Shown here piece by piece: positions 2,414 to 51,693 of a DNA stretch of 64,000 nt (its first letter is position 1; each line of letters starts with the position of its first letter). The position numbers and the translations under genes are program-made. The DNA comes from Halichondria panicea (Eukaryota; Porifera; Demospongiae; Suberitida; Halichondriidae), in assembly GCF_963675165.1 (NCBI RefSeq), contig NC_087385.1, positions 4,154,501 through 4,218,500 of the forward strand, in the 5' to 3' direction. The notes beneath the pieces were generated by a model, which did not search any database, was not told where the DNA came from, and saw nothing but the letters and a program-made list of their open reading frames with translations.

Positions 2414-5284
2414 TTAAAAGGGTGTTATTTTGTTCAGTTCCACTATCACCTGTGTCATACTGGGTCGATGGCTGGACTCTCTCTCAATACAGCGGAGTAT
2501 CAGCTCGTACACTGCAAGACGCTCTCTCTTGATTCTCTCAAACATCTCAGGGAAATTGTCTTGACTCGGAAATCGACTGGCAGTCACTTCAGCCAACACA
2601 ATGCCGTAGCTGTACACATCAATCTTGACAGTTTGTGGAGGAGGTCGTGCAAGCGGTTGAGGCATGACTTCAGGAGGGGAATAGATTATGGCCCCCTCTC
2701 CCATCGTATGAGCATGCTGCAGGAAGTTGGCGGAGCCGAGGTCGGAGACCTTCCCCTTCCACTGGTGGTTGGGCATTCGCTGCAGGAGGACGTTGGGAGC
2801 ACTCACATCACGATGGATGATGGGATCATAGCGCTGGTGCAGGTAGTCCAGAGCTAGGGCAATGTCCATGAAGATTGAGAGGCGGTTTCCTGGATCCAGT
2901 TGATTCCTCTCGTACGCTTGTCGGAGATTCATGTCCAGGAGTTCGGTGATGATGAGAGGAGGGGATCGATTGGCTTGGTTTTGCTCATCAAAAATAGCAC
3001 CAATGAATTGCACAAGGTTTGGGTGTCGCACTTCAGCCAATAGCTTCATTTCTCTCTCCATTTTTTCGATGTAGATTGGGAGGGCAATTTCTTCGTGTAG
3101 TCGCTTGACGGCCACGCTCACTGTTCCCTCCAGCACCTCCCCCCACCCTCCATTGCCAATCCTCCTGCCAATGATCACTCTGTTGGCCGGAATCCTCCAC
3201 ACCTCTGTGTTGTGTGCTGCCAACTCTTTCGTCTTGCCTTCTAACTCCCTCTCTAAATCTGTGATTCGAGCAGACAGGTCAGCTTCTCTTCTGTTGGCCT
3301 CAGCCAATTCCTGATCTTTCATAGCCAATGCTCTAGCTTGTGTAGCCAATTCTCGATCCTTCTCTTGCAGCTGTAGTTGGTGGTGACGTTGAGTGTCGTG
3401 CTCTCTCTGCTCTGCTGCTCGTAACTGTTGTTCCAGAGCCCTCACCCGGTTTTGAGAGGAGTGGTCACTGGTCTCACTGACTGATGAGGCATGTGCAGTT
3501 GCTTGTCTGATCCTCTTCTCACTCAGTCGCTGGGCGGAGCCTCTAGTGTCGTTGTGGGCCACTTCCACGATAGCCCACTTTCCAGCCGAGGGTCCAGCAA
3601 CAGACACTGAGGGTCCAGTCAACTCTGTAGGGGGAATAATTATGTAACAGTATGCATTCAGAGTCATTGACACATGTATTGTGTGCCATGTACTAGTAGC
3701 TGCTCACCAAATCTCAGTATGGTGGTCTCTGCAATAATGTTTGAAATATTATCTTCCTGCATCTTCCCCCAGCCTCCAAACACGAGGACCTCAGTGAGTC
3801 CTGGTCCCAGACTGGTGGCAGTGATGGAATGGCAGTGACGTGGTGTCATTGACTCAGGAGGTGTCACCTGGAGGCACAAAAAATAATAACCTAAATAATG
3901 CTCCCCCTGTACATGTATAGCATATACAATATTACAACAGCAAAACACAAGGAATCTCATCCTATACGTGTTTTATCTTGTGATTACCCTTTATCAAATT
4001 ATGCATCGAGGCTACGCGACCGTGTACGGAAGAGACTGTATGACTTTTATTTTACGTACGTGTGTAACCTTGAGTGAATTAATATATATAGCACAAGCAT
4101 TTAAGCAGCTTCCTATAGATCAATTAGGAAAGTAAATGTATGTCTATTTATTACACGTACACTAACAGTTCATAAGACTCACCTCTGTCCACTTGCCAGT
4201 GTCAACAAAAAGTATCCACATGTCCCCCAGTGTCTTGTTGCCATTATCCAGTCCTCCGTACATCAGTAGTTGAGGGTGGCCCTGGCCATAGTTGAGACAA
4301 CAGACAGCATGGAATGACCTCTCCACTGGCCATGGCTCTCCCTGTACTGGCTTCACCTTAGTTACCTCCTACACACAGTGAACACACAGTATTGTGCATT
4401 TCAATGTGGCAGTACTAATTCCAACTCACCATGGTCCTAAAGTCAAACATGTACACATCATTGACCGCACGATCACCACAGCGAGGTTGGTTCCCTCCAA
4501 AGAGGACTGCCCTGTGCTGGTCCACCATTATGAAGGTGAAGTAGGAACAGGGAGGAGGTCTCTCTCCTCTGAGCTCAGGGGACGACCAGACATCTGGAAG
4601 TAGGGGTGGGGCAATTTAGAGAATGGTACATAATAATCCTTATAACATTGATTGATATGAAAGTGAACATGGTTTCCTATGTGAGTGAGGGTGGGACTCC
4701 GCCCACCAGTAGCTAGATACCCTATAAGTGTATGTATGCAGCGAATGTACATATTAACAAATGTTACCATTTTGTGTGTCAAAGAAATGGAACTCGTTTG
4801 TGTATCCACGTCCATCAGACAGTCCCCTGGTGAATGTTGATCCTGGTTGTGTGGTGCCCTCAATACCGACTCCTCCAAAGCAGCACAGAGTTCTCTCGTT
4901 CACACGGACAAGTCCACAGCCAGACTTTTTTATAGGCTGACTACCAGAGGTTTGAACCATGGTCCACTGGAGAGAGTCCAGATCAAGCGTGCTCATGTCA
5001 TTGAAGAAAGAAGACCAACCCTCACGACCACCAAAGGTGTACAGGGAACGACCTACACAAACAGAACGACCACCATACTCTCCAGGGGGTAGAGGTCCAG
5101 TGGTGGGCAAGAGGCTCCACAGCTCAGTGCTTGGATCACACACAGCAATGATGTTAGACCCCTGTCTTGGACCACTCCCCCTCCACATGTAATAGTGTCC
5201 GTAAGCTGCAACAGAGAATGGACTGTAACGAGGTAGTGGTTCAACTGGTGGTCGACCAAGAAAGGAGTGAACAGCTTTCAACAT
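2414..5284 (-). CDS. Kelch repeat - coiled coil - protein kinase fusion protein
   Basis: Five exons, 5' to 3': 5284-4768, 4593-4430, 4368-4183, 3867-3708, 3624-2414. Together they encode 745 aa in frame with GT-AG introns. Residues about 1-340 are Kelch-type beta-propeller repeats (YTFGGREGWSSFFNDMSTLD, LFGGNQP, LMYGGLDNG, VLVFGGWG, each followed by a Trp-containing strand). Residues about 400-480 form a charged coiled coil rich in E, Q, R and K. Residues about 490-745 form a kinase domain with glycine loop GNGGWGEV, beta-3 lysine in VAVKRL, catalytic loop HRDVSAPN, DLG in place of DFG, PPE in place of APE, and RPSMTQV near the end. Essential catalytic residues are present, so it should be active; the loop is most like tyrosine-kinase-like (TKL) kinases. 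No signal peptide or membrane segment is seen, so it is probably cytoplasmic. An AG lies 3 nt before the start codon, so a 5' UTR intron or a further upstream exon is possible. Substrate unknown. Confidence 0.85.
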
Positions 5285-6742
5285 TGTCTGCAGGAGTAAG
5301 GACAGTAAGCAATATACATACACACATCTGTGTATATTTCGAGAGTGTTGATGTGTACAAGGTGTTATTACTTGCAATATTTACTAGGTTCATAGTTTAA
5401 TGAGTTTTGTGGTAAATGTGTTGCTTTGTTCAACTTCTTTGTTGTGCGCAGGGCACTTGGTCTGGCCCCTGCGTCTTTTGCTTTGTTATTGCCATCACCC
5501 ACTATTTTTCACTCAGTTATTGTTGTTATTGTTGCTAACTCAGTAAGAATTATTTGCAAAAAGATCAAGTCAACTTGCATGTACTCTAGCTATCTGTGGA
5601 TAAGTAGGAGCCTGTCTCAATCTCCCAGACAATAGCTGACTCTCACTCTAAACTAGCCTGTCTAGTTGTTAGTTGACAAGAAAGAGCTCAACAGAGGGTA
5701 TAAATGTTCGCGGTTTTCGCTGATCAAGCATGTACTGTGAGCATTGACTCGCCAGCCAGCCCTTTCTGGCTAGCGAGTCTACCGTGAACATTTATACCCA
5801 CGAATTTAATATCGCATGCATGCATGTTGCAGAAAGGCTGCTATTCCGCGAAAACCTTTCTAACAGTCAATCCACGAAAGTTTATACCCTCGAAATATAC
5901 CCGCTATAGTATCTAGACACTGATATACAGATCACTATCATACACACTTCTCTTATGTACACACTTCTCTTTATGTCCTGGGCTCTGTATATCTATAGCA
6001 GCAATGAGACACAGCATTTCAACTTACAAAGTCATGGACAGTAAAACACTCCCTCAGAGAGCTGCTAGTTGTTTGCCTTGCAAAAATATCAGCTCACTGC
6101 ATTAATTACCACAAAACCACAAAATCACCATACACTCTTAATGTTGCTATGCAAACAACATGCAGTCCGGCCTAAGCAATGATGGCTTCTAGAAGTTGTA
6201 TATCCGGTACTTTTTGAGTAGACCCTTGAAAAGTACCTGCTATAAGGTGGTATCACTGAAGAGTAATGCTTTTATCTACTCTTGGTGGTATGGAAACTCA
6301 CGTAACTATGGTGAGGTTTGAAGAAGTTTCAGGCCGGCTGAAGAAACTGTTAATAGTACGAAGTACCTTAAACACTAACATCACAAAATATTGTTTGGTG
6401 CTTATCTAGTAGAAAAATATGTTCGGGCTTGATGATCAAAACCAGTATAACGCAGTGAGCAAGTTAGTAGGTTCTTTAATTAACGTAACAATTTTTCGTA
6501 CAGCACAAGTCTCAGCGTAAGGCGTTGGTAAACCATTCTCTACTTCAAATCCCCTCGGTTCTATGAGTCTCCATAGTCTATTTCCATGTGAATGTACCCA
6601 ATACTACATTATAGCAACATTGTATGGTGGCTTTGTGGTAAGCAGTGAATGATTTGCAAGGTCTATGCTGTATTGTTGTTGGAGTTCTGTTGATCTTGGT
6701 TGTAAGCTTGATCTACATGTACATGCACTCATTGATAACATA
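5285..6742. other. Intergenic stretch with fold-back DNA
   Basis: No gene is supported. The part next to 5284 should hold the promoter of the kelch-kinase gene (inference from position). A fold-back repeat lies at 5696-5799; from about 5920 to 6740 I see AT-rich sequence without recognisable features. Confidence 0.4.
5696..5799. repeat. Fold-back repeat with inner hairpin
   Basis: Outer arms GGGTATAAATGTTC and GAACATTTATACCC are exact reverse complements. Inside, near 5746-5779, GACTCGC...GCGAGTC forms a second near-perfect stem with CCAGCCAG/CTGGCTA in the arms. The sequence continues to about 5910 with ATACCC/GCTATAG motifs like those in the other fold-back elements of the window. Confidence 0.7.
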
Positions 6743-7032
6743 CACTGTAAAAAGAGATGTGCCATTATAGCACGCATGTAGCGTGTTACACATGTGCCAA
6801 ACTGCTTAAAGTGTGTTATTTACCCTCTAGAAAGGTTTATCACAGCTAAAAGTATGTCGTTTTGACCCACTGAATGAAAATGACCATTACACATGTGTCG
6901 TTTCTTATGTACATTACATATAAACATGATTGTTACAAGTGATAACACAATCACTTGTAAAAATCATACTTCATATGTCCCTGGCAACAAATGTGACATA
7001 GCAACGAGTGAGACTGTTTAAATGGTAGCTAG

Positions 7033-7635
7033 CTAGCCTCGATTCCAGGCCGCATTAAAATACGGCCTGGTGCCTATTGCAGGGGTGATAGTGCGCATGC
7101 GCTTCAAATTACCCAGAATATGGGTAATCGTACTACGAACGTAAAACCTTAGTAAATTACACAGGAAATTAGTCCGTTTACTAAGAATATGTTCCGTAAT
7201 ACTTTATCTCTATGACTGAGCTCTGTAAAGCTGTGGCTTATGCCGTCTATTGTGTTGGTCTAGAAGGCTTGAACACTAGTTTTAAGACAGAAGAGGCTCT
7301 CATCTACGTCTAGGATGGTCCTATAGCCGGGTTGTCTTCGCAAGTAGCAGTTTGAGGCACCATACACTTCCCATAGCCTGTACAGATCCAAGGTAAGACA
7401 TCCTGACCATACAACCGTCATAGAGGTAGATGAGAGCCTCTTCTGGCTTCAGACTAGTGTGAAAGCCTTCTGGAACAACGCAATAGAGAGCTAAGCTGAT
7501 GTACAAAGATAGAAAATAGATGAGAGAAAGAAAAAGGGGATTCCCCAGATTTTGGAGAATAAACTAACGCATGCGCACTATCACCCCTGCAATAGGTACC
7601 AGGCCGTATTTTAATCGGCCTGGAATCGAGGCTAG
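7033..7635. mobile_element. Long fold-back (MITE-like) insertion
   Basis: Arms of about 65 bp are near-exact inverted copies, beginning CCTCGATTCCAGGCCG and running to the palindromic GTGCGCATGCGC. The interior is also an imperfect inverted repeat (about 7263-7330 against 7390-7470). The sister copy at 9950-12150 has the uninterrupted site GGTAGCTAGCTAGTTAG, which proves the insertion. The duplicated target is about 7 bp (TAGCTAG) but ambiguous because the site itself is repetitive. No coding capacity was found. Confidence 0.8.
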
Positions 7636-8415
7636 TAGCTAGCTAGTTAGTTCAACCAAGTATAGTACAGTACAGTCGAGACAACTGTTCACTTCAAAGA
7701 ATTGAACTGCTGGAACCACCCTCAACTCTGAAACTACACAGTTTTTCAGTGGTAGGTTTATATTCTCTATTAAAAATACTATTAATATGTAATTATTGCA
7801 GAATTGATAGACTCTACTTGTTTTTTTGGCTGATGAGTCAGTAATTCTCCTTTCTCAACAATGGCAGACTCCTTCGATTGTGATAGCGTACGAACAGAGG
7901 GGCTCAAAGGTACGTTTCCTATTGTTATAGCTATATATACATGATTTTTTGTCACAACACATACACACAGTGGATTTGTATGCTATTATTCTACATGTAG
8001 GCCCTCTTAACCATCCTCAAACTGCCCTAACATTTATTTGTGCAGTCTGATTCTTTTTACTAGCCGTTGTCAAGGCATTTACACAAATTTGAGTACAGTA
8101 CTAATAAATAAATAACTATTATTGTAGCTCATCAGCATAATTATTCTTCTGCAGGTAGGCCTTCCTAACCACCCTCCAAGTGAACTAGCTGTCTGAATCT
8201 TAATACTGGTCCCTGCCAGGGCACAAATTTGAGGTACGTTTCCTATCAATTTAATTCATACATACAAGTTTTACCACATTTTTTGCCACAACACATACAC
8301 ACATTGCTATTATTCTACATGTAGGCCCTCCTAACTATCCTCAAACTGCTCTAACATTTATTTGTGCAGTCTGATTCTTTTTTCTAGCCGTTGTCAAGGC
8401 ATTTACAAATTTGAG

Positions 8416-12176: not shown

Positions 12177-13584
12177 TTACGAAGAATGATGATTGATATG
12201 ACAGTGTTTTGGAAAGGGGATAAGTAGAGGTTGGTCATGATGGTAATGCCGAGGGTTAGGTTTCGGATTGAGTGTGAACCTTGACGAGTGGAGAATTGAT
12301 TCCCCCCTGATGATCCTGCGGCACAGAGTTACTTTCTGTTGAGACCGTCTTGTGCTCAGAGAGGGCCAAGATAAACTAGCTAGCAGAGGTAAGTATTGAT
12401 CTGACCAGCGTTTGGTACAGAGTCGCGCTCCAAACTTCTGAACCGACTCCAACTGATTGATGGCACAAGAAGAAGAGGGGTCCCACACACTGCTACAGTA
12501 ATCAAGGAGTGGGAGCACCAGTGATTTGTACAGGGAGGAAAGAGTGGACTGATCTGCTTGGTTGAAGTGCCTGTATAACAAGCCAAGTTTAGATTTGCCT
12601 TAGCGCAGGTGTTGGAGATGTGGCTATTCCATTTTAGGTCTTTTGTGATGGTAACTCCAAGGTAGGACAAGGAGTCCACTTGTGTAATTTGACCTGAGAT
12701 TGTAGAGAGTATGATGGACGGGGGCTGTCTCTTTCTAGAGAGGAGTAGCAGTTTGGTTTTTGACTGATTGAGAGTGAGACCCGCAGTGTTGACCCAGTTG
12801 GTGATGGCATCAATATCTCCTTGAAGATCCAAGACGTCAAATTCATTTCTAATGGGGCTGTACAGGAGTATGTCGTCCGCATACAATAACAGCTGAGAGC
12901 CCGGAGAAAGAGGAATTCTTGTTAGGGGATCAATGTATAGGCTGAACAGAAGGGGGCCTAAGATGGACCCCTGTGGTACTCCAGAATTGACATTGGCGGT
13001 GGACAAAGAGTGACCATCTAGGACTACCTTCTGCTTCCTGTTTGTGAGGTAGTCTCATGAATCAGCCGCCGTTCTTTGGAATTAATTGTGCGGTCTGATT
13101 TTTTTCTAGCCGTTATCAAGGCATTTACACAAATTTGAGTACTAGTATTGTCATCAGCATAATTATTCTGGTTCCAAAAGAACGGCGGCTGATTCATGAG
13201 ACTATTTGTGAGGTAGCTAGTAAACCACTTATGTAGGCTGCCCGAGATGCCTGCTGACCAGAGAGTTTTCAGGAGGCCTTGGTGAGGGACTCTGTCGAAG
13301 GCTTTGCTCAGGTCAAAGAAAACAGCAGCTACACTAGAGCCATTGTCCAATGAGCGGTGCCAGTCATGAGTAGCATGGAGGATTGCCTCCTGGGTAGAAC
13401 TGCCCCGCCTGAAGCCAAATTGAAGTGTTGAAAGAAGGTTGTTGGAAGTAAGATACTCCACTACCTTATTATGAACAATGCGTTCCAGCACCTTTGATAG
13501 TAACGATAGTAATGAGATCGGACGGTAGTTTGACGCTAGTTTGGGGTCGCCTGCTTTAAATATTGGTGTTACATTAGAGGCCAA
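12177..13584 (-). pseudogene. Broken reverse transcriptase of a CR1/L2/Jockey-type element
   Basis: Blocks seen in order on the minus strand: SNYRPISLLSLLSKVLERI, then AVFFDLSKAFDRVPHQGLL (catalytic aspartate block), GVPQGSILGPLLFSLYI, and YADD in LLLYADDILLYS. These are followed by YLGVTI and the C-terminal LPLLDYCSSVWDP. The frame is broken by the 155-bp insertion near 13050-13213 and by a frameshift near 12590, so the copy is dead. The upstream endonuclease is missing. Confidence 0.85.
13050..13204. mobile_element. 155-bp MITE with 9-bp target duplication
   Basis: Terminal inverted repeats of about 33 bp start TAGTCTCATGAATCAGCCGC. Both sides are flanked by TTTGTGAGG (13041-13049 and 13205-13213), a 9-bp duplication typical of Mutator-like elements. 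Removing the element and one TTTGTGAGG restores the reverse-transcriptase reading frame. The roughly 90-bp interior matches part of the tandem unit of the CACTGTAAAAA elements. Confidence 0.8.
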
Positions 13585-17017: not shown

Positions 17018-21908
<4,891 letters not shown>

Positions 21909-33900: not shown

Positions 33901-36900
33901 CACTAGACCAAATGGGAGGTACACAAACAACTCAGAGATTTATCTACGGCAAAGCTAAACCCATAAGTATAATGGTCAGTACGGTGTACATACAAATATT
34001 AAAGTTGAGACTACATCCCTACCTGTGAGGTAGGTGTTGTGAGAGGAGTTGATAAAGTAGTGAGAGATTGGGGCAGTCATGTCCTGCGTCTGATTGAGGT
34101 GGTCCATGTCCAGAACGTTGTTGTCATCAGACAAGAGGTACTCCAGGAGGCCCTTGGACGTCAGACGATCTGTTAGGGATAATTATGAATGTAGTTACAT
34201 TACATAAGGCAGTGACACGCAAACAACCGATCTGCATAAAGCCTGAAATTCTATAGCCTAAAACCTAAAATGCTTATTATACGAGTGCTGCAAGCTGCAC
34301 TGTGCTAATGCCTCTCGCCATGTTTTGCTTTTCGCTTAAAAACTATTAGAAGAGGTAACTATAGTTTCGTTATTATATATAATGTTACGTTATTTAATAT
34401 TGGAATTGTTGACAATGAATTCTACCCAGTTACTATAGTAGACATTATAGTAGAGAGCTTATAAATAGAAAAAGAAGCCTATCTGATGGGTTGATGAATG
34501 ATCTTCAAGGATAGAAAGCAACTGCATGTTATTGTAGATAAGTTTACATTTCCTGTCAATGAACAAAAGGTGGGGGTTCAGAGAAATAGTTGTGTATCTA
34601 CACAGTAGCATTACAATGTTTGGTGGCTTACCAGGACCTCGTGAAAAGAGTGAAAAGAAGAAGAGAAATTGTATTCTGTCTCAAAATCTTGTGGGATTGA
34701 ATGCGCATGCACAGAAAAAGGGGTGTATCCACAATAGGTTAAAATTTGCAATGGCTGCTGCAACTCTGGCAGCAGCTTTGCAGCTCTTTTCTAACTCTTG
34801 TAGCTAACAAAAAGCTAGCGCTTTAGTGCAAGGCTAACTCATAAGTTGAATAGAAACTTGCAAAAGATTCTGAAGAGATTGCAACAACCTTCACTGTAAG
34901 TAACAAAGCTTTAGTTTGCAAATCCATGAACAAGAGAACGTAGCTAGAAGCCTATAGAAGCTGTTAGTTTTCGTCACATTGCAACCGTTGAGCAGTTACA
35001 GCTGGAACAGACACACAGACAGACACACAGACACATACACAGTAAACTTTACCGTATCCCTTGTGCGGCTACGCCTCAAGGCATAAAAACTGTGTACACC
35101 ACACACATGCGTATATTCCTAACCCTCCCTACCTACACCCTACCCCTCCCACACTCACCTCCCCTCCGTCCCTTCTCATGACGGCTGATGAGCTTGGAGG
35201 CGTGCTCCTTGGTTGTGTAGGGGTGGAGGATCTCATTGAGGCGGGGGTCACGCTGATCGCCATTCAGGAACTTATGGAAGTCGTCCTTTGACATCTGGCC
35301 CTTGGACTTGTGGGACTTCCCTTGCCTGAGGTAAAAGGTAAAAGAAATTATCATGCGTGTACACACTGACATAAATAGGGGCAAATAATAGTATACCAAG
35401 CTCAGGGAAACTAATTTTGTGGTCTAGTCATAACATGCATGCTTCTTGGGAATATCCCCATTAACCACAAGTCCATGTGGAAAAAATGTCTTCTTTTGCA
35501 AGGAGAACAAGCATTAGCAAACCCAGCTATGGCCATGACTACAAGTGGGTGGAGAGCCCCTCTGAAGAGCTACTCTGTAAGCTATGCTTACGTGTAGCCA
35601 CGGACCCCTATCAGCACAGGTATCAACAAGTTTTATGATGAGCTTTATAATAATAAAAGCACATGTATGTAATCTATAATAAAAACTCATCCAGATATGG
35701 AAGCAGAGGTTGTGGAAAGGTGTTTTGCAAGCGATGTTTAGTCTATCATCTCGACCAGGTGTTCAAGTGTCCTTGCTGCAAGAAACCTCCAAGGATGTAT
35801 GAAAATCGACAGTGTAAGGCTTTGCGATATAGATGTACATGCTACAGTGTATGCCTGTATCAGAAGCCAATGAATTCCAACTATATCGGAGGCACATTAT
35901 ACACTATTAGCATGCACTGTTAGCATTTTAATGCTAAACTGCAGGTGCAGAAAGGATAAGCTCTCTTGATGTCCAGTGTGAGAACCAGGACAATGGCTGT
36001 GAGTGGGTGGGCCAGCTAGGATCCCATAACAAGCACGTCAAATCATGTGACTACGCCCTCATACTATGCCCTAGAAGCTGCCTGTCACATGATGGTAATA
36101 AAGTAACAAAGCTCCCTAGGAGTGAGCTAGCTGAGCACCTGAAGCAGTGTCCCAAACGAGAAACTAAGTGCCGACACTGCAAGGTGGTGGGTGACCATGA
36201 TACAATGGCCGACCACTCTAGCAAATGCCCCAGGGTAAGAGTAGCTTGCCCCAACCATCCTTGCCCTGCAAAGACTTTCCGATGCAACTTGTCGCTGCAT
36301 CAAGCTAGGTGCAGATACGAACAAGTCAAATGCAAGTACAGGAAGATAGGGTGTTGGAAGACGCTACCTCGCGAGGACATCGAAGATCATAAAGATAAAA
36401 ATGATGGTTTTCATCTTGAGATTGCTTGTGACCAATTGGTGTCTTTAACTAAAATGTTGGATTTTACTATCATGTCCCCATTTACTTTCAAAGTGAGACA
36501 TTTTGAACAACAGAGGACGAAAAACAAACTATTTTGCAGCCACCCGTTTTACACTTCATCTAGCGGCTACAAAATGTTCGTAAAAGTGTACCTCAACGGC
36601 AGAGGCCAAGCTAAAGGCTCTCACGTTTCTGCTTATGTCTGCATTATGAAAGGAGAAAACGATAGTACATTGAGCTGGCCATTTGCAGGGTCCATGACGA
36701 TAGAGATTCTCAATCAACACGTAGACAAGTACCATTATCAGGAGGTGGTGGTCCCAGGCAATGATATGCAGAGAGTAGTGCAGGGGGAATATGGTACAGG
36801 CTACGGTAGCCCAGAGTTTATAGCACACGATCAGCTCAGGTTTACTCGTATCATAAACTGTCTGTACTTGAAGGACGACACACTGATCTTCCGAGTGTCA

Positions 36901-39900
36901 GTCCACCCACGAGGCTACAAGCCCTGGCTAGATTGCTCAATGAACGCAGAGCAGGTATCGGATTCTGACTCAGACTAAATTTGAACATTCACATTGTCAA
37001 GTATGCTCACATTACTTATCATCACTATCCTGTTTGATTGTATAACAGTATTTTGTTCTCAAGTTCAGACTCAACCAATCATGTTTCAGTACACACATAT
37101 CAGCCTATACAGTGTATGCTACGCTTTGGACTGTACATGCACGTGCAGACAGATCCAGCGAATTAATCCTTCTATAAAATATTTTGTTATGTAATTATAC
37201 ATATACCACAAATTGATTTCAAATAATTGAAATTTCATGACATTTGTGTACATGAGCGAGTTACCGGTAACTGGTCCGCTCATTATGTATAAATGCACGC
37301 ACAAAGTAACATACCCCTGCATATCTGGATTCCTTTAGTCTAGGCCAAGAGTATAATTAACTCTTATCTACTCTTGCTGCCTAGGTACCACAGCCCATTG
37401 TAGAAGTAAAACAGGTTCATACGTTATAATCTAGGTACATGTAAATACAGCTGTATATGTATTACTAGAATATTTTGGGTGAAAAACCTTTGCGAATGAG
37501 CCAAATCAGCATAAAAATTGACCCTTTGCGATAAACTATTGCATTCTGGCAAGGATCGTGTGTAATTACAATGTATCAGTGCTAATTTTAGGTTTGCGAT
37601 TTTATTTTTGCGATTTTATCAACCGTCGCAAAGTTCACATAATTATACATTCTAGTAATACGATACATATACACGTAGTTTTGCTTACATAAGACTAAAG
37701 ACCGCATCCAGATCTTGTTGTCTGTTGTTGAGAATCTGATCAAACATTTTCAGGAATATATCCTCTGTGAAGTCTGCCCCCATGACATACTTGTTACCAT
37801 CCACCTATGTGGGAGGGTCACACAACGTTAGTATGCGCATGGTAACAAGAGAATATGTTTTGTTGCCATCCACCTGTGTGGGAGGGTCACACAACGTTAG
37901 TATGCGCATGGTAACAAGAGAATATGTTTTGTTGCCATCCACCTGTGTGGGAGGGTCACACAACATTGGTATGCATGGTAACAAGAGAACATGCCTATAG
38001 CTTATACACTGTACATGTATGTACTATGTAGGCCTTGGTAGAGTGTATGTTCAAGTTATCCCTCCCCTCTCTCGCATTATTCCTCAGTGTAAACCACGAT
38101 ACCATAATATTATTATCACAAGTATTAAACATAATTATCACAACTTTATAATGGCCACATGCATGACTGTGTTAACACTCTAGCCTATAGCTGTCAAGGA
38201 GATACCGTATAGAGGGTAATTTTTGTGGGGTGAAAAATTCGTTTATCTGGAAAACGGTGGTTTTCGTGAGTAAAATTTTCGTTTAGTCTCGTTGCCTGCA
38301 CTGCATTCATACGTTCCGGTAAGTCACGCCTACGTTAACATTTCGTGGAGATCACCTTGCCCACGAAAATAACGAATTTTTTATCCCACAAAAATTACCC
38401 GCTATACGGTAATTGTTATCCACCATTTCAATTAGTAGTACGTACATGGTGGAATAGCAACTTTGGAATCAAACAACGTATACGTATAACCAAGGGCGTA
38501 TGAAGAGAAGAGGGCATGCAACTCGCAATGTATACTGTGTAGTCGTCAAAAAACTGATGAGTCAGCAGGATATACTATATTTAGCCAACCGCCCACACAT
38601 AAATAGGCGTGATAGTGGGCGTGAACACTGTTATACTAGAAATTTACCGCAAAATTAATTTAAAAGAGCTTTATAGAATTGATCAATGGCTACTTCTAGT
38701 CTAGCATTGGTCCTTCTCTTCCGCTTGTTGACCTTTGTGGCTAACTCTACCCAACAATACAGTGCTAGCTAGCTAGCTGGCTTGGTGACTATTATGGAGT
38801 AAGTGCACGTGCAATCTATTTTTAGTGCACACGCCCCTCCTATTTGTAATTTGATAGATTGTAGTTGCATGCCCTCTTCTCTTCATACGCCCTTGGTATA
38901 ACTAATAGTGTCACAGAAATAATACTATAGTAAACTAGAGCACTAAAGTGCAAACCCTCGGCTGGTGACATGATTATAAAGAAACCAGAAGAGTGATATA
39001 ATGCAGTGCATAATATAGTGATGTTGTTATCATGCATGACTTGCACAGCAACTCAGGAGTAATAAAACTAAACCAGAGACTGGAGGCATGCTGAAACATT
39101 TGAGAACAGGTAAGTTATAGGTATGTTGTTTTGCTGCATGCAAACTCAAAGAGTGGGTAATGAACGCCATGATTGTTGTAAAACGATAGATGCCAAAAGT
39201 TCAAGTCTAAAATTAATGGCTGCATCAGTAGAGCCTTGCAGCTCTCTTCTCACTCTTGCAGCTACCAATAGCTAGTGTTCTAGTGCAGAGCTAACTACTA
39301 AGTGGAGTAGCAACACTCAATAAACAAGTTTGGCTACGTGCTCTTCTGAAAACGCTGCAATGGCACAAGCCATTCCAAGTAAGCAAAACTAGGCATAACT
39401 CGAGAACGCAGCATTATTTTGCAAATCCACGAATTAAAATCCAAGAAAACATGACTAGAAGCCTATAGAAACTCTTACTTGCATTTCATTGATCCTTGAG
39501 CAGCTGTAGCAGTCTACAAAGACACACAAACACACTACCGTATACCTCGCTTGCGCATGCGCACCAAGGTTTTACATGCTATAGTCATTCATCCCCACTA
39601 CCACACCACACCCACCGTTTCCTTGACAATGTTGAAAGTACCAAGCCATTGGTTGATGAAGTTGTCTGGAGTATAACGGATCATCATGAGACGATTCACA
39701 CTGAAAAAACCAACAGTAACAATGAGTATACAGTCTAAAGATCTGAAACAGTGCTGACGTGCATAAACGTATAGGTCCCTATCTACGTGTACACCTGAGA
39801 AACAAGATGTTCACTGAGATTTCTGAAATTAATAGCGAGATACAGTATGGAAATTTGATGGACTTACTCTTTCAAAAGTATCTCTCCCCTCCCATTGGCA

Positions 39901-43146: not shown

Positions 43147-44199
43147 AAGATAGACTTTGTTGTCTAGTCATAATCATTCCTATTTTTTGTCATACACTTC
43201 ATCTCAAACCTCTTTTGGGGATAGACTTTACGAATTGTTGAATGGGAAGGTTATCTAGCCAAAAGATGTACAATTTAGGGAATTAAGGTAGTAACTTGAA
43301 GATATCCTCGATCTGATCCTGACCACTAATAACAAAGGAGTCCCTCACAGAGTGTTCACACAGCCTATGTAAACAAAGGGTAGCCAATTATGGGACAAGA
43401 AGCCAGAAAAGGAAGTGCATGAATCTCATTATCTCACTCCCACAAGAGCTAGCATCAAGAGTGGAACTGTTTCTCTGTAGCTGCTGGACCAATAGGGAAT
43501 ATTGGAAAGACGCCAGGCTGATTGTAAACTACTTACTCTACTGCACTGAGTGCTGAGCAAAAGGTAACCTCTAGCTCAGTAGCTAAACCGCATGGCTTGT
43601 AGCTAGCTACTTATAGTCTATAGTCTCTTAATTAGACCACAAACCCTAGCAAAAAATGGGTGTGTAAATCTTGAATACATGAATAGATGGTACTAAACAC
43701 CTTTGCCTAATCTAGCATGTAAACTGTATCCATTCAAGTTTCAATGCAGAACATGTTTCACTCTCTAGCTAACAAAGAAGAACCCAAACAAAATACCCAA
43801 TTAGCTCACAACATACGTCAGTGAGCTACAATTACAACCTTCTAGACTCTTGGTAGAATTCGGTTTCCCATAGGTTCTATTTTCAGTCTAACAATTTAGA
43901 CAAGACTGAGTGTGTAATTCCATGCAAGTGTGCCATTCAAGTACTATGGTGTTAAATGATTTAATGGTGCTAGCTATAATTATAAAGGATAGTACCAGAC
44001 AAATTCCACACATTGGTTTAACCATGGGCGCCGGGCACATAGGGTTAGGGTTAGGGTTAGCCAGTAGAATTCCACTAGCTTGAGTGTTGTTACTATTATG
44101 TAGTGTACCAGTATTTGACCCACACACGACGACGTGATTTACAGAGTGAATCGTTCACTTCTCCTGTTGTTCTGCAGATATCACCTTCCATTGTCTGTG
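43147..44199. other. Intergenic stretch with a short telomere-like tract
   Basis: No gene is supported. It should contain the SMIM12 3' UTR and the promoter or a 5' exon of the SWAP70-like gene. At 44041-44060 there are three GGGTTA units. Confidence 0.4.
44041..44060. repeat. Short interstitial telomere-type repeat
   Basis: AGGGTTAGGGTTAGGGTTAG, three units of the animal telomere hexamer. Too short to call an old telomere or fusion site. Confidence 0.8.
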
Positions 44200-47100
44200 A
44201 TGACTGAATCCCACGAGAAATACGTGGTAACCAACTGTCTGAAAATAGCCTATGATTCGCTACGTGTCCTGGGGCGGTTTGTGCAGGGAAGTCACTTGTC
44301 ACCGTACAAAGAGTTCTTCGAGAAGCTGCTGGATAGGAAGCTTGACGGGGAAGTTCCTAACTCCGAGGTAGAAGCGTATTACTTGAATAGGCTAACTGAG
44401 AGCGACTTTGTGAATGCCGCAGAGAGCCGAGTGTTTGCAGGGAACTATGGAGGTATGTGTGTATATAAAATCTCCCTCGTATGCTTCGAAATTGTTCACT
44501 CTAGACTCCGACCTCATTGCACGTCTCCTATCCGCTGTGTGGGACATTGAGTTAGCCACGCCCACCCGTTCTAGCCTCTGCACGGGAAGCAACTCAGAAT
44601 CTAGTCGTCAGCTCTGGGAGATATTCATACGGTTGGACACAGGTGATAATTAAAGTTGATAGAGTATGCACGTCTATATTAGACATGGAGTGAATGGACC
44701 ATTATACAGTCGCTTAGTGATTACATCTCTATAGTAGATTTACATAAGTGAGAGAAAAGCTATAGTCTAATTATATTACCAATGTCTAAATGCACTGCCT
44801 GAAAAACACTTGGTAAGGCATCCCCCCTCCCCACACACACATCACCATGCACACACAGAGAGTCAGCTAGCAGTGCACATCGAAGATGTTTGCGACCTGG
44901 TTCTCCGGATCTTCAAGTCCAATGGCCACATAGAGGAGCCGGAGATGGTTCAGGGGTGGTTCAACAATCAGCAGACAGTCCAGTTCTGGCCGTTTTTTGA
45001 AATCATGGCGGAGAACTATAAGCAGTATCTGCAAGTACGTCAGTCCAATTATTATTAGCAAATGTCTGTCCTTTGATGGAGTGAAACCTAGCTTTTTTAT
45101 CTGTATTGAAACTTTACAATGTATGTACGGCACCCTACATGTATATATAGTTCACACCACGCACCTCTCACACCCTCACAGACCCCAGCGGTGACTGAGC
45201 TCTACACAATGATCTCCACAGAGATGATTAAGGACGGAAAGCTTTCAAAAAAGGGACACATTGTACCCAACTGGAAGGGGAGATGGTTTGCACTCACAGC
45301 CAGGTCTCTCACATACAGGGAAGGAAAGGACACACCCATTTTGAAGGTATAGGTACTAAATGGTACATAACTTTAATTCCTTACTGAGTACAGAAACTGA
45401 TTATTATAAGTGGATAGTTAGTTAGTTGCATGTAGTTAGTGCATAGTTATGCCTCGGAGACTCGGATGCGTAGCCACAGAGGAATACGGTGAAGCTGAGT
45501 GTGTGTGTGCATAGCAAACTTTTCTCATAAAAAGTAGTTAGCCTTGCACTAGAGCGCTAGCTATTTGATAGCTTCAAAAGTGAGAAAAGAACTGTACTGC
45601 GTGCAATGGCAGAAGCGAACCAGCAGCCATTGTGAACTTCAACCGTTCTGTATATTCATAAATGATGTTCATTGATTGGACATGCACATAAGACTACACT
45701 TCTATCCTCCATCACACTTCTATAATTATTTAACTACAGTATGATCATCGTATGCATACAATATGCATAGTCTTAATCACCTCTTCCATAATACTCTAAT
45801 ACTTTTGAGCGAAACAAAACATGCCCCGGGGCACAATGCAAACTTTTGATGTAGCTTAAGAGTGTCTTTTACGATTATGCCAGAATCTTGTGTTCACTTT
45901 CTGTGGTTAATCAAATTCATTGCTTTTATGTTCCCCAGACGATAGTGATTAACGAGAAGTCTCAAGTGCAGAATATGCCAAACACCAAAGGTCACCTGTT
46001 CAGGTTCAGAATTCTTGATGGAGTATCTACCACACCCACTGAGATATCGGCCACAGATGAGTTTACCATGAGAGAGTGGATGGCCTTCATCAGACTAGTA
46101 TGTTGAGTAGTCGTAGCATTTCGCTCATCTCTATCCTGCTTTGTATGCAAAGCAAAAATGTTCTGAACGTACTTAGCTTCATCGATCATGTCCGACTCTT
46201 TATACCGACTCGGCTCTAACTTAATTGCTAGACCGTTACAATGCAGCCCAATGCTTTTGTGGGTTCATGCTTGACACACTGTAATTATGTTTGTGACTAT
46301 TGTTATTTTAATGCTTCTTCATTGTTGAAATATTTATGTACTTAGTCCTTGTGGGAGTTAATAGGTACATACACGCTGAAACAGCACTTCCTCAAGCTGT
46401 CATAACTCATTGCAATTAAGGGTCACCGGTTTATGGTTAGTTTATTGTTACGCTAGCAGACACACAATGACCTCATGTAGACTTTATGGACTGTTACCAT
46501 TGAGTTACTTATCTGCATAGGCTATCAAGATGCACCAAATTGAAGGCCGGAATTTTCTTCATAAGTATCGATTAGCAATCAGCTCATTTCCCAAGTCCTT
46601 CTTCAGCCAGGCGTCCGCCATACCCTTGTTCACAGCTGCTCCCTCCCTACCCCAAGCTAAGAAGAGCAACACCGACCCCTCTCACAAGTGAGCAGAGATG
46701 TGTGCTAGTAGACTGTACAGTGTATGTACATTTGAATGTGTAATGTAATCCATTGTAAGATTGTGTTAGTATGTCAACTAAATGGGATCATGAACATCGG
46801 CTTAATTTGTCTGTATTACAGTGCTATAAAAAGTATGTAAGGACAAATGTAAGGGTAGGTTGATTAATTAAGGTGGTGCAGTTTAGGAGAGTGACTCACT
46901 GTATACTTATGTTGTGTAACTGTAAACTGTACTGTGCAGGGGGCTAAGGAGTAGCCAGTCTGTTCCACTGGCCAGCGCTACCTACAATGGTCGGTCTTCT
47001 GAAAAGACACTACCCATTATTGAGCAAGAATTGGATCCTACTTATGGTACCTGTATGACATTTACAATAGGCCTATAGGTGTACGTATGAAGCGTTTATG

Positions 47101-49159
47101 TTGAATTCTTTAGTAGGAACTGAATGTTAAGATAGTTATGTATAAATGTCTTTTAATTCAGATTTCGCAGACAGTGCGTTAGGCAATGAACCTCCCCCCA
47201 TCCCACATCAACAGTTTGACTCCGAGTGTGACATGAGCCCTCCTGGCGGTAACTTGTTGTTGTTGTACTGAAAGAATAAATAGGACTTACCGTATAGCGG
47301 TAATTTTTGTTAGTGCTAATTTTCGTACAACGACCTATTTAAATATTTCGTATGTTTAATTTTCGTATAGCTCAGGATAGTAACATTGAATCTATTGTGG
47401 TAGAATCGTACGAAAAATTTCCACCATACGAAAATAACCTGCCTGCTATACGGTATTGTCCTAAAATTTTTCACTTTTCGTTCAAACACCATTATTTGCT
47501 GTGCTATCGTTAGTAATGTGAAAAATTGCTTTTCAGTGTCTGACTCTCCCCACATGCATTATTTAGTATGAAAATTAAGTAAGCCCACACCTCACAGGTC
47601 ACTCCCATTTGAGAAGAAAAAGCTCTTTGGACTCTTCAGAAATTGATCATATTCAGGTGGACGGTGATCTGGAATATGCTGTTGTTACTAAGGTGAGCTG
47701 GGGTGTGTGGTTTTAGTGTGTATGTATGTACGATCTAAATCTAATCTGAACGTGCATACATACTCCTAGTTTTACAACATTAATATTATCTCCAGGTTAT
47801 TAAAAAAAAGAAAAATATCAGTGTTCCAGAAATGGCTACTAATTATGGTAAGTTTTTCTACAATGCTGCAAAACTTTAAAGCTCATAATGGTCTCTTCCT
47901 CATAGCGGAAAACCCTATGCCTCCTGCGCCACCACACAGAACATCTTCTCCTATTATCAGTACCAAGTCTAAGTCTATGGACGCCCCCTTACCACCTCTG
48001 CCACCCACAATCGCACCACATGCCTCTACACCTCCAGCAATCCCACTGCACACCTCCACATCTGCACATCCCTTGGCCAACACTCCACAACTACCCCCTC
48101 CAAGACGATCTCCTCCTGGTATCTCGAAGAACACTCCCTTCCTCGATATTACAAGCTCTGCCCCACTCTCTCAATCTCCACACTCCTCCCCCACACCTCA
48201 ACGCAAAGGTTATGCCGAGCTGCAGTTTGAAAATGGGAACTTAAATACCTCGAAAACGTCACCTATCCCAGAAAGACGACATCAGCCAGATGTTCCAAAC
48301 AAGTTTAGCTATTCAAAACTTCAATTCGAAGGAGACAAAGAAAAAGAAAAGGAGTTGGAGAGTGGTGAAGTCAGCAAGAAAGGTAAGAAACCACCCCCTC
48401 CTCCAAGATATCAGGGAAATATGATGAAAAATCTGACCGAATCAAACCTACAAAAGGCTGAAAATAGAGGACGTTCTAAACCCACCTCCCTACCCGATAT
48501 TAAAGCTGGTCAACAAAATTTGGACTACGCTGAAGTAGTTTTCTCGAATAAAACTGCCGTTTCTCCATTAGTATCTCGACGTATTCTTGGCGCACCTAGC
48601 GATGATCCTCCCCCAGGCAATCAAATGACACCTACATCAGTTGGAACAGTTGAATATGCTACCGTCATTTTAACACCAAAGGTAGAGGTGAGAACGACAA
48701 AGAACGACAAAGACAAACCTCGACCAGATGGTTATGAAAACTTCGACTTTAATCCAATTTTGCAAAAGGAAAAGGATTCTGGCTATGCGAATTTCGACTT
48801 TAGCCCCAGTCCTTCTGCGGGACGGGATAGTTCTAACCTTACCCAAGGTCCAACAGTGGTTGGTTCTGCCAGACTCATAAGACCAGACCATCCACAACCC
48901 AAGCCACAACCCAAGCCTAGGTGAGTCGTGTCAACTCACGTGTATATACAGTCACCAGCTGTAGCTAACGAAATTAAATGTTAGTGACCGTCCAAAAACC
49001 GGTGCTATAATTATGCTCAACCTAGCTCTTGGGCCCTATTTCACTGATTATTGTTCCTGTAGAGCATCTCCACGGAAAGCAATCTCAGCTGAAGACAAAG
49101 GACCAGTGCCACCAGCGAGAAAAACTAACGGCAGCCTCGCAAACACTGACTCTTATTAG
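44200..49159 (+). CDS. SWAP70/DEF6-like PH-domain scaffold with proline-rich, multi-tyrosine tail
   Basis: Twelve exons, 836 aa in frame: 44200-44452, 44505-44642, 44859-45034, 45182-45346, 45939-46097, 46521-46687, 46940-47046, 47162-47248, 47598-47692, 47796-47847, 47906-48920, 49063-49159. Residues 1-190 are a helical module like the EF-hand-like N-terminus of SWAP70/DEF6. A PH domain spans about 200-305 (MIKDGKLSKKGHIVPNWKGR, WFALTARSLTYREG, EISATDEFTMREWMAFIRL). The tail is not the usual DH-like coiled coil but Pro/Ser-rich, with tyrosine motifs EYAVV (~444), GYAELQF (~569), SYSKLQF (~602), DYAEVVF (~674), EYATVIL (~717), GYENFDF (~743) and GYANFDF (~760), plus KKPPPPPRYQ. Known chemistry: YxxL/V sites can bind SH2 domains of phosphatases or kinases, YxN suits Grb2-type SH2, and poly-Pro suits SH3. 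It is probably a membrane-recruited signalling adaptor (inference). An upstream 5' exon is possible. Confidence 0.85.
45450..45660. mobile_element. Dispersed CCTCGGTG repeat, diverged copy F
   Basis: Starts ATGCCTCGGAGACTCGG, then AATACGGTGAAG, GTGTGTGTGT and TTAGCCTTGCACTAGAGCGCTAGCT. It is in opposite orientation to copies A-D. It lies in intron 4 of the SWAP70-like gene. Confidence 0.6.
47288..47455. repeat. Fold-back element, GGTAATTTTT subfamily
   Basis: Starts TACCGTATAGCGGTAATTTT and ends TGCTATACGGTA. The middle (TATAGCTCAGGATAGTAACA) is shared with the fragment at 57489. It lies in an intron of the SWAP70-like gene. Confidence 0.8.
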
Positions 49160-49373: not shown

Positions 49374-51693
49374 TCATACTTCTATATGAGGGTTTGACGG
49401 TTTGCCTTGCTGGATGAGTTGATCTTCTTGTTTCATTTTGGGTTTCTCAGTCCGAGTGTGCCACACCATCACCTGTGTATAAGAAATATGTACAGTATGT
49501 GATGTGTCAAGTGCAGAATTCAATTAACAAGCATCAATTAAAATATAATGAGCAAAACTAGTTACCATACAACTACTACACACAGTACCGCAATATAGGC
49601 ATTTCAGCAGAAGTTAAAGAGCATCATGGCATTCAATCACAGGGCAAAGCGCTAAGTGGATCTAATGTTGCATGCAGTCCATGCTCAAGTACATGCATAT
49701 ATACATGTATATGACTCTATACAAGTGTGCCATGAGGTTCGACTCCTTCAAATTTCTTTCAGCTACACCACAGCGTAAGCAAACAGTTTTGTGAGAGTGA
49801 TTCACATGAGTTCGATGTGGTTCGACTCCTTCCAACAGCAGCACCAGTTAAAGTTAAAGCCAGTAGGCTAGGATTGGTACCACTTTTGATTATAATGTTA
49901 TAGATACATGTAATGTATTTTTCTCACTTTTTTACAATCTAGTGGCCTTCCCTCCAGCTCCTCCTTGGTTACCAGGTGCTCCAGCAGGGAGCTCTCAAGG
50001 TTACCACGCAGCGCTTTAGGATTAATGTACGCTGTAGGCTTGGAGACAAGGAGATCCAGATTGACGGCAAAACCTTGGAAAACAGTGTGTTTACAAGGAT
50101 ACAAGTACAAGAAGAACAATGGAATAAGACACTCACTGGTGAATGGCTTTTAAAACTATACGATGCTCAGATTAGAGCCAAGAATACGCATACTCCACGC
50201 ATTGCCACACAACTCAACAACTACTCTCACCGGCCATGTCTATCGGGAACTTTCTTGTAGTGCCCCACTCAGCATACCATCCAGTCACATGACCATCCTT
50301 ACACAGCGGACCTTCAAACCTTAACCCACCCGTGATCCCCACCAGCCATACAGAGACAGTAGTAGTGTAGCGCATCTGGGGTTAAAACACATAGAATCAC
50401 AACAGTTAAACGACTAACTGTTTATGAACACTAATAGCAGCTGGATTGGTGATAATAAAACTGGACAAATGAAAGCACCGCAGGTGCTGATGCCTCGGTG
50501 AAGATGCCAAAGCTACATAACATAAACACTGACTTTTTTATTCAGTCCAATATCATGCATGCAAACTCAAAGAGTGGGTAATGATCGACCATGAATGTTG
50601 TTAAAAACGATCGATGCCAAAAGTTCAAGTCTAATGGCTGCCGTCTGCAGAGCCTTGCAGCTCTCTTCTCACTCTTGCAGCTACCAATAGCTAGCGTTCT
50701 AGTGCAGAGCTAGCTACTAAGTAGAGTAGCAACATTCGATAACAAGTTTGGCTACGTGCTCTTCTAAAAAGGCTGCAATGGCATTCCAAGTAAGCAAAAC
50801 TAGGCATAACTCGAGAACAAAGCATTATTTTGCAAATCCACGAATTAAAATCCATGACTAGAAGCCTATAGAAACTCTTACTTGCACTTGATTCATCCTT
50901 GAGCATCTGTAGCAGTCTACACATACACACACAGACACACACTACAGTATTCCTCGCTTGTGCATGTGCACCGAGGCATAATTAATGTTTACCTCTTCAA
51001 ATAGTACTGGGTCATAGGTGTTATCATCATCTCCAAAGTAGACCACACCCTTCTCATTGAGACCATCCCCTGCTTGTCTCTCCCTCAGCCAATCAATGGC
51101 CAGGTTCCTCTGCTCCACTCCGCGATTCTTTTTCCATTTCGGTTCATTCTCTGATAGTCTCATTTGCTCTGGAGTTCTTACATTCAGTTGTGTACTCTTA
51201 TCAATTTTGCAGCTCTCAATTCCCGAAAGCAATCTGGTAACTAGCCGAGTTTGCTGGTCTGAGTCTTCCACTAAGATCCAGTGCAGTTTAGGCACATGCA
51301 TTAAGGTCATACACAGCCTCAAAAGGTCAGCTTTCTGCGTCCATCTTTGGTAGGTGGGTGTTATCACGTAGATGGTGGGGAAGTTAACATTTACTCTGGT
51401 CTGCTTTTGGGTTAAGAGTTCTGTGAGATTTTGGAGTTCGGCCTTTGTTTGTTTGAGTTCTTGTTGCAGCGAAGTGATGAGGAGCGACTTAGACAATAGT
51501 TGATGGGTATAGCTCTCACCTGTGATGTGTTGTGTGTGTGGAGGGGAGGGAGGATGGTGAGTTCTTGTTGCAAATCATTATGTGAGGTACCTTGGTCAAG
51601 TTGATGTTGTGTGAAGAAGAACACTGTGAACACGTTGACGACCAGGAAAATTAGTAACACTCCAGCTAACCTGTATGGCCCCCTGAATAGCAT
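49374..51693 (-). CDS. B3GAT3: Beta-1,3-glucuronyltransferase (GlcAT-I type, glycosaminoglycan linker)
   Basis: Five exons, 51693-51520, 51487-50993, 50375-50231, 50073-49928, 49472-49374; 352 aa (human B3GAT3 has 335). A type II membrane plan: short cytoplasmic start, signal anchor at about 11-30 ([17 protein letters not shown]), Gln/Leu-rich stem, then the catalytic domain. It starts with [20 protein letters not shown], followed by LHWILVEDS, the metal/UDP-binding DDD in [29 protein letters not shown], and the acceptor-site region [17 protein letters not shown] and terminal IEV complete it. The enzyme adds GlcA to the Gal-Gal-Xyl linker of proteoglycans in the Golgi. The B3GAT3 orthologue is the most likely, but a B3GAT1/2-like relative is not excluded. 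Intron 1 is only 32 nt; a 77-nt intron using a later AG would also stay in frame and remove 15 stem residues. Intron 2 is almost filled by a transposon copy. Confidence 0.88.
50466..50980. mobile_element. Dispersed CCTCGGTG repeat, copy D
   Basis: Same ends as copies A and B (AAATGAAAGCACCGCAGGTG ... GTGCACCGAGGCATA). It occupies most of glucuronyltransferase intron 2 (50376-50992) and ends 12 nt from the exon 2 donor. Confidence 0.8.

Follow-up and report, generated by a model that had tools for sequence, protein, structure and literature searches.

At 44200-49159 on the forward strand, the window (the whole stretch of 64,000 nucleotides analysed here) appears to join a SWAP70-type PH region to a long tail rich in tyrosine and proline motifs. 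The question raised by this locus is whether it encodes a divergent exchange factor of the SWAP70/DEF6 family, a docking protein for tyrosine-kinase signalling, or two adjacent genes read as one.

Gene model, PH domain and N-terminal region

The gene model comprises 12 exons and 836 aa in a single frame, from the ATG at 44200 to a TAG ending at 49159, and these are the limits that an earlier sequence-only reading had given (Table 1). All 12 exons are free of stops and all introns are GT-AG, although two donors, gtacct and gtgata, deviate from consensus as judged by eye. Exon 11, with 1,015 bases, contains no stop in the coding frame, whereas the alternative frames have 11 and 20 stops.

Table 1. 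Exons and tyrosine codons of the window gene
Feature	Position	Strand	Residues and content	Basis or remark
Exon 1	44200..44452	+	aa 1-85 (part), N-terminal region	ATG, open frame, GT donor
Exon 2	44505..44642	+	aa 85-131, N-terminal region	AG/GT, frame kept; donor gtgata off consensus
Exon 3	44859..45034	+	aa 131-189, N-terminal region	AG/GT, frame kept
Exon 4	45182..45346	+	aa 190-244, PH first half, SWAP70-type KKGH..NWKGRWF	Pfam PH, PDB 2dn6
Exon 5	45939..46097	+	aa 245-297, PH second half	Pfam, PDB; following phase-0 intron common to L039
Exon 6	46521..46687	+	aa 298-353	splice signals, frame
Exon 7	46940..47046	+	aa 353-389, low-GC3 tail begins, Y388	donor gtacct off consensus
Exon 8	47162..47248	+	aa 389-418, tail	gene model
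Exon 9	47598..47692	+	aa 418-449, Y444 (LEYAVV, ITIM-type; Tyr codon 47675-47677)	gene model, motif scan
Exon 10	47796..47847	+	aa 450-467, Y466 (NYAENP)	gene model, motif scan
Exon 11	47906..48920	+	aa 467-805, Pro-rich stretch, six Tyr sites	open frame, motif scan
Exon 11 Tyr codon starts	48211, 48310, 48526, 48655, 48733, 48784	+	Y569, Y602, Y674, Y717, Y743, Y760	
Exon 12	49063..49159	+	aa 805-836 and stop; PVPPAR (aa 819) SH3-type site	gene model

The sole Pfam domain of the protein (searched to E 1) is a PH domain at residues 205-299 (E 7.8e-9). Its best PDB match is 2dn6 (KIAA0640, human SWAP70; 1.5e-8), followed by 1eaz (TAPP1; 4e-4), and it scores z 21 against the human SWAP70 PH and z 36 against the PH of L039, a second gene on the same contig (0 of 2,000 shuffles in each case). 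PIP3-binding PH domains follow the consensus Kx(7-13)[KR]xR, which is matched here by KKGHIVPNWKGR.

The sequence-only reading had assigned both the PH and the region preceding it to the SWAP70/DEF6 type; the PH bears this out, whereas the N-terminus of the window gene alone does not. A profile comparison of residues 1-204 failed, with an hhalign probability of 0.2% against a two-sequence profile, within the range of 20 shuffled controls. Pairwise comparison with L039 gave a local z of 1.6 (145/2,000 shuffles) and an end-anchored z of 2.9 (11/2,000), or an end-anchored z of 4.05 (0/2,000) with the last 20 residues removed. Against a provisional human SWAP70 sequence, the local and end-anchored values were 0.9 (376/2,000) and 2.2 (59/2,000), and a Pfam search with E up to 10 found no match for the N-terminus of either the window gene or L039. 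In other words, residues 1-204, taken alone, are not demonstrably SWAP70-like at the sequence level.

Tyrosine and proline motifs of the tail

A motif scan of the Pro/Ser-rich tail located all of the sites previously claimed for it: five YxxL/V (Y444 YAVV, Y569 YAEL, Y602 YSKL, Y674 YAEV, Y717 YATV), two YxNF (Y743, Y760) and poly-proline stretches. The tyrosine sites form three look-alike pairs. To judge their number, residues 306-836 were shuffled 20,000 times. Yxx[LIVMF] occurs 7 times against 2.4 expected (84 shuffles reach 7), Yxx[LVI] 5 times against 1.9 (519 shuffles) and the ITIM pattern [SIVL]xYxx[ILV] 3 times against 0.5 (225 shuffles). Two further patterns were picked after reading the sequence, namely YxNF (2 against 0.02; 8 shuffles) and Yxx[LVIF]x[FL] (6 against 0.2; 0 shuffles). 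YxN (2 against 0.7; 2,768 shuffles), PxxP (15 against 10.7; 1,789) and [RK]xxPxxP (2 against 1.4; 7,996) fall within the ordinary range for such a tail. PxxPxR, a candidate SH3-binding motif, occurs at residues 473, 629 and 819 and PxPxPR at 629 and 800; PxxPx[RK] shows a modest excess (4 against 1.3; 831 shuffles).

The likeness to ITIM/ITSM sites holds in part: three of the five YxxL/V sites (Y444, Y674, Y717) fit the ITIM pattern, but none fits the ITSM pattern TxYxx[VI], which has no match in the tail, and the ITSM label was dropped. Membrane-protein and ITAM readings were likewise set aside, as the protein has neither a transmembrane-like segment nor an ITAM-like pair. The replacement of the family's coiled coil by this tail is consistent with a crude heptad count, made with no positive control, which gave no coiled-coil signal: the longest proline-free run is 43 aa, the best heptad window has 5 of 8 a/d positions, and 76 of the 531 tail residues are proline.

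A sister gene and the exon 6/7 junction

The best match to the front of the window protein elsewhere in the genome is L039, which encodes 795 aa comprising an N-terminal region, a PH and a tyrosine- and proline-rich tail and aligns to the window protein at a pairwise E of 2e-24. Two phase-0 introns, one within and one after the PH, lie at the same places in both genes when compared by eye, the one after window exon 4 corresponding to that after L039 exon 2. The front of L039 has 2dn6 as its best PDB match (9e-24; next solved PH 3.3e-9). Against the provisional human SWAP70 sequence, it shows 28% identity over 270 aa, with z 7.6-11.9 for the N-terminus. By sequence, L039 is clearly SWAP70-like across N-terminus and PH, including the EF-hand-like N-terminal region, and in this way partly bridges the distance between the window gene's N-terminus and the family. 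Its ATG sits inside a longer open frame, and its start is therefore a choice. Two other PH genes were inspected by eye and rejected: the first half of the L040 PH (C16:96000-105000) resembles that of SWAP70, but the frames of this gene show no tyrosine tail, and L041 encodes a PH protein of another kind whose N-terminal open frame is long.

The tail of L039 is enriched in Yxx[LIVMF] (9 against 2.6 expected; 4/20,000 shuffles), in YxxM (2 against 0.27; 526/20,000), present as the PI3K-type sites YVAM and YVPM, and in PxxPx[RK] (5 against 0.87; 22/20,000); it also bears YDxV/P sites. The two tails hardly align, with z 0.5 near the junction (568/2,000 shuffles) and 2.45 overall (13/500), the latter carried by proline-rich stretches. 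A search of the genome with the window tail returned six matches, all six of them the gene's own exons.

The front and the tail of the window gene differ sharply in codon usage. Third-position GC falls from 0.605 in the N-terminus and PH to 0.368 in the tail, the drop affecting 17 of the 18 amino acids with codon choice (isoleucine rises), and synonymous codon use in the two parts is uncorrelated (r -0.007). Such a change would also suit a pair of genes or a tail that was acquired late; in L039 the fall is mild, its last exon standing at 0.36. In one alternative, exons 1-6 would form a short PH protein of SWAP70 type, terminated by the TGA of the exon 6 donor, and exons 7-12 a separate LAT- or SIT-like cytoplasmic adaptor. 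Besides the codon shift, this would account for the immediate stop met by an unspliced exon 6, which completes one codon and runs into the TGA inside the donor; a short PH-only isoform is therefore possible. However, the 252-bp intron 6 (CAA|gtgagc ... ctgtgcag|GG) has good splice signals by eye, a compatible phase and no AATAAA or ATTAAA, and exon 7 lacks an in-frame Met. The same N-PH-tail layout in a relative as diverged as L039 also makes it less likely that two gene models were fused by chance. We regard two genes as unlikely, though the most credible of the alternatives.

Proposed docking role

We favour, with some confidence, the hypothesis that the window gene encodes a cytoplasmic docking protein with a PIP3-recruited SWAP70-type front, acting in a GAB/DOS-like manner and not as a Rho GEF. 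The tyrosine phosphorylation of the tail and the binding of partners are wholly inferred. Hypothetically, PI3K activity would generate PIP3, and the PH would then carry the protein to the membrane, where a tyrosine kinase, possibly Src-like, would phosphorylate the tail. The paired pYxxL/V sites Y569/Y602 (33 aa apart) and Y674/Y717 (43 aa apart) could engage the tandem SH2 domains of an SHP2 orthologue, much as GAB proteins engage SHP2 through a two-site BTAM. The duplicated YxNF, together with the PxxPxR sites, may recruit GRB2 and other SH2/SH3 adaptors. In this way, the protein would connect tyrosine-kinase signals with Ras/ERK and with the control of actin while having no Rho GEF activity of its own, and L039, with YVAM/YVPM and YDxV/P, would form a branch feeding PI3K. 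The genome encodes orthologues of SHP2 (PDB match 3.8e-76) and of GRB2 (2.1e-78), the SH2 stretch KYFLWVVKF of the latter being identical to human. Exon matches number 71 for SH2 (all 89 candidates scored), at least 81 for SH3 (150 of 159 scored) and at least 176 for PTP (150 of 361 scored).

Among known systems, the window protein shares with GAB/DOS/SOC-1 the hallmarks listed in a 2009 review (PMC2747914), namely a PH, proline-rich SH3-type sites and many tyrosine sites, and its pairs could suit SHP2. It differs in that the PH is not N-terminal but is preceded by an extra region of some 200 residues, and in having YxNF but no YxxM, which is found in L039. The best solved relative of its PH is SWAP70, the GAB PH itself lying outside the comparison. 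DOK, FRS2 and IRS proteins combine a membrane-binding front with a phosphotyrosine tail. The window protein has a putative front and tail of this kind, but Pfam (E up to 1) found only the PH and no PTB/IRS domain, whereas elsewhere in the genome there are 14 PTB/IRS exon matches (all 19 candidates scored).

Where SWAP70 has its coiled coil, DEF6 has a DH-like part. The exchange activity of DEF6 is reported to lie in its DH-like C-terminal part, and tyrosine phosphorylation on an ITAM-like sequence to allow DEF6 to reach the membrane (PMC5421089). The window protein shares the PH type but carries a tyrosine- and proline-rich tail, with neither coiled-coil signal nor ITAM-like pair. Because the DH-like part is missing, the lymphocyte-type GEF backbone previously proposed is doubtful on this account, while the accompanying GAB/DOK/LAT-style adaptor persists as a probable GAB-like docking role. 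A second alternative is that this is a divergent SWAP70/DEF6 which retains Rac/F-actin regulation at PIP3 membranes through its N-terminus and PH, the tail being a fast-evolving linker with mostly incidental tyrosines. The SWAP70-type PH is in keeping with this, and the low tail GC3 and barely alignable tails suggest weak constraint. Yet the tyrosine sites show more patterning and pairing than shuffled tails do, L039 has the same kind of tail with a different set of sites, and the N-terminus of the window protein is itself poorly conserved. We consider this reading improbable, slightly more so than two genes. A provisional sequence of the C-terminal F-actin-binding segment of SWAP70 had no match in the genome in a search with no positive control.

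Vertebrate ITIM proteins are mostly membrane receptors. An inhibitory scaffold, recruiting SHP2-like and SHIP-like phosphatases to damp kinase signals instead of promoting Ras/ERK, would draw on the three ITIM-fitting sites, the SHP2 orthologue and the PTP matches, but is very improbable given that this protein has no membrane segment and that YxN points to GRB2. With ITIM/ITSM receptors of Siglec, KIR and PD-1 type the window protein shares YAxL/V sites; it differs from them in having no membrane segment and no ITSM, and in bearing its sites on a PH protein.

The docking hypothesis bears on an older problem. A 2009 review, which describes a Gab-like protein from Nematostella, identified no bona fide GAB/DOS in either Monosiga or Trichoplax, sponges going unmentioned there (PMC2747914). 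A 2020 survey reports GRB2 and SHP2 in the sponge Amphimedon, where Dof was not found and FRS2 not convincingly (PMC7260276). Against this background, the two proteins with a SWAP70 front and suitable sites, both encoded in one such genome, are concrete candidates, open to test, for what SHP2 and GRB2 docked on in early animals. Tentatively, sponges may possess a GAB-like docking family on a SWAP70/DEF6 front, the window gene offering ports of SHP2/GRB2 type and L039 those of PI3K type, by a route separate from GAB/DOS; we hold this to be possible but less than even. There are hints that early animals made their own docking proteins from a SWAP70-type front. If the tyrosine-tailed SWAP70 is the older, the coiled-coil exchange-factor SWAP70/DEF6 of other animals would be the derived form. 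Among the matches listed from open-licence literature, we found no published description of a SWAP70 front with a tyrosine/proline tail. Against prokaryotic genome contigs, where little was expected, the whole protein gave 99 pattern matches, none confirmed.

The TRAF and kinase neighbourhood that had seemed to add interest carries no functional weight: the neighbours examined (a kinase, a kelch gene, an M17 peptidase, two TRAF/MATH frames and a glycosyltransferase) lie on both strands and were dropped as evidence. Separately, a peptidase exon (L079) has Ser in place of the catalytic Cys, as silicateins do, and a sponge origin is plausible.

PH domain and tail of the predicted protein

The gene model is coherent: twelve exons, lying within C9:4154501-4218500 of a 131 Mb genome of 39 contigs, read in a single frame with GT-AG borders at all introns and encode a predicted protein of 836 aa. 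Its sole Pfam domain (E up to 1) is a PH at residues 205-299 (E 7.8e-9). Among solved structures, residues 1-320 match the SWAP70 PH best (1.5e-8, versus 4e-4 for TAPP1 in second place), which bears out the SWAP70-type PH of the sequence-only reading. That reading had also assigned the N-terminal region to the SWAP70/DEF6 type, which this gene by itself does not confirm. The region has no Pfam match, and against a profile of the N-termini of human SWAP70 and L039, a predicted second SWAP70-type gene on the same contig, it scores similarly to shuffled sequence. When aligned end-anchored, it shows a weak similarity to L039 (z 2.9; 4.05 omitting the last 20 aa) and less to human SWAP70 (z 2.2); the corresponding values from local alignment are z 1.6 and 0.9. 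The predicted protein aligns well with human SWAP70 only in the PH and the stretch immediately before it, where identity is 29% across 116 aa at a pairwise E of 8e-13. The SWAP70 identity of the gene thus rests on the PH and the sister gene.

The tail (residues 306-836) contains 13 Tyr, 76 Pro and 64 Ser. No coiled-coil run was seen in it, in agreement with the claim that it replaces the family's C-terminal coiled coil, nor was any ITAM-like pair or membrane-like segment. The five YxxL/V and two YxNF sites first counted are all present (see table). Yxx[LIVMF] occurs 7 times versus 2.4 in shuffles (reached in 84/20,000). Three sites fit the strict ITIM (reached in 225/20,000 shuffles) and none the ITSM, leaving the first half of the proposed ITIM/ITSM resemblance; YxxM and YxxP are likewise absent from residues 306-836, and plain YxN and plain PxxP show no excess over shuffles. 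Three look-alike Tyr pairs are spaced by 33 (YAELQFE/YSKLQFE), 43 (DYAEVVF/EYATVIL) and 17 residues (GYENFDFNP/GYANFDFSP). SH3-type sites comprise three PxxPxR and two PxPxPR, one common to both sets.

Positions of the features in the window and genome
Feature	Location	Strand	Remark
SWAP70-type gene	window 44200-49159	+	predicted
YxxL/V sites of its tail	Y444, Y569, Y602, Y674, Y717		
YxNF sites of its tail	Y743, Y760		
Retroelement open frames	window 12177-13584	-	Pfam RVT_1 (reverse transcriptase) for 13027-13584; other two frames by eye
TRAF-type MATH open frame	window 19476-20213	-	
TRAF-type MATH open frame	window 36007-36975	+	with TRAF zinc fingers
Glycosyltransferase family 43 exon	window 50945-51496	-	opposite strand, downstream of SWAP70-type gene
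L039	G000:C9:3566000-3575900	+	predicted second SWAP70-type gene; coding exons 1548-8151
L040	G000:C16:96000-105000	-	PH half
L079	G000:C9:2570213-2570782		cathepsin-L-like stretch

One gene or two

Third-position GC and codon usage break abruptly at the exon 6/7 boundary (window 46687/46940). Third-position GC drops from 0.605 in exons 1-6 to 0.368 in exons 7-12, being lower in the tail for 17 of 18 amino acids, and synonymous codon use of the two parts is uncorrelated; in L039 the drop stays mild up to the last exon. A tail that evolves under another constraint or was gained later would explain this, as would a model that fuses two genes. Exon 6, if left unspliced, runs immediately into a stop. 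Our main argument for a single gene is that its layout is common to two diverged genes.

L039 (10 exons, 795 aa) contains the top genome match to the human SWAP70 PH (C9:3570109). Its front matches the SWAP70 PH structure at 9e-24 (next solved PH, 3.3e-9) and is 28% identical to human SWAP70 over 270 aa; the SWAP70 front of L039 is clearer than that of the window gene. Self matches aside, L039 ranks first for the front of the window protein (PH exons 29.1 and 23.7 bits; next, on C16, 25.6); in the reverse search, from the L039 PH, the two PH exons of the window gene reach 34.1 and 26.7 bits, and the best other place 36.7 in one piece. The two proteins align at a pairwise E of 2e-24 (24% identity), and the intron within the PH and the one after it, each of phase 0, occupy identical positions. 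The L039 tail is also Tyr/Pro-rich, with YDEV, YISL, YDPV (twice), YIHV, YDEP, YLTL, two YxxM of PI3K type (YVAM, YVPM) and PPLPP-type stretches; the two tails are hardly alignable. L040 encodes a SWAP70-like first PH half (KKGHVRRNW), its product apparently short and without a Tyr tail.

A candidate docking protein and its possible partners

SWAP-70 is described as comprising an EF-hand-like part, a PIP3-binding PH, a coiled coil and an F-actin-binding part (PMC3595256), and DEF6 an EF-hand, ITAM-like, PH and DH-like parts, exchange activity residing in the last (PMC5421089). The window protein shows no C-terminal part of this kind. We therefore claim no SWAP70/DEF6 membership proper, and the earlier label of a lymphocyte-type GEF backbone should be dropped. 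Unlike in GAB/DOS proteins, its PH is not N-terminal, so we claim no membership there either. The gene is a good candidate for a new docking-protein variant.

In GAB proteins, two SHP2 sites act as a bisphosphoryl activation motif (PMC2747914). By analogy, the window protein would reach the membrane through PIP3, a tyrosine kinase would phosphorylate its tail, and the phosphorylated tail would recruit SHP2, GRB2 and SH3 proteins. The analysis shows the parts list; we infer all binding steps from the GAB analogy.

Among the proteins encoded in the genome is one with tandem SH2 domains, and this pair matches human SHP2 (3.8e-76) better than SHP1 (1.6e-63). A PTP-domain exon lies on that strand too, and the PTP signature HCSAGIGRTG is readable further along. 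A GRB2 (SH2 and second SH3 versus human GRB2, 2.1e-78) and an NCK-like open frame (three SH3 and the beginning of an SH2) are also present. Exon matches number 71 for SH2 (89/89 candidates scored), at least 81 for SH3 (150/159 scored) and at least 176 for PTP (150/361 scored). Most of the tyrosine phosphatase exon matches listed lie at about 0.04-2.6 Mb of contig C4, an arrangement that resembles a large tandem array.

Other observations

The L079 stretch begins SSWAFS, with Ser at the expected catalytic Cys position as in silicateins, which hints that the source is a silica-forming sponge. Three telomere-type TTAGGG repeats occur at window 44040-44060, about 140 bases 5' of the start codon of the SWAP70-type gene.
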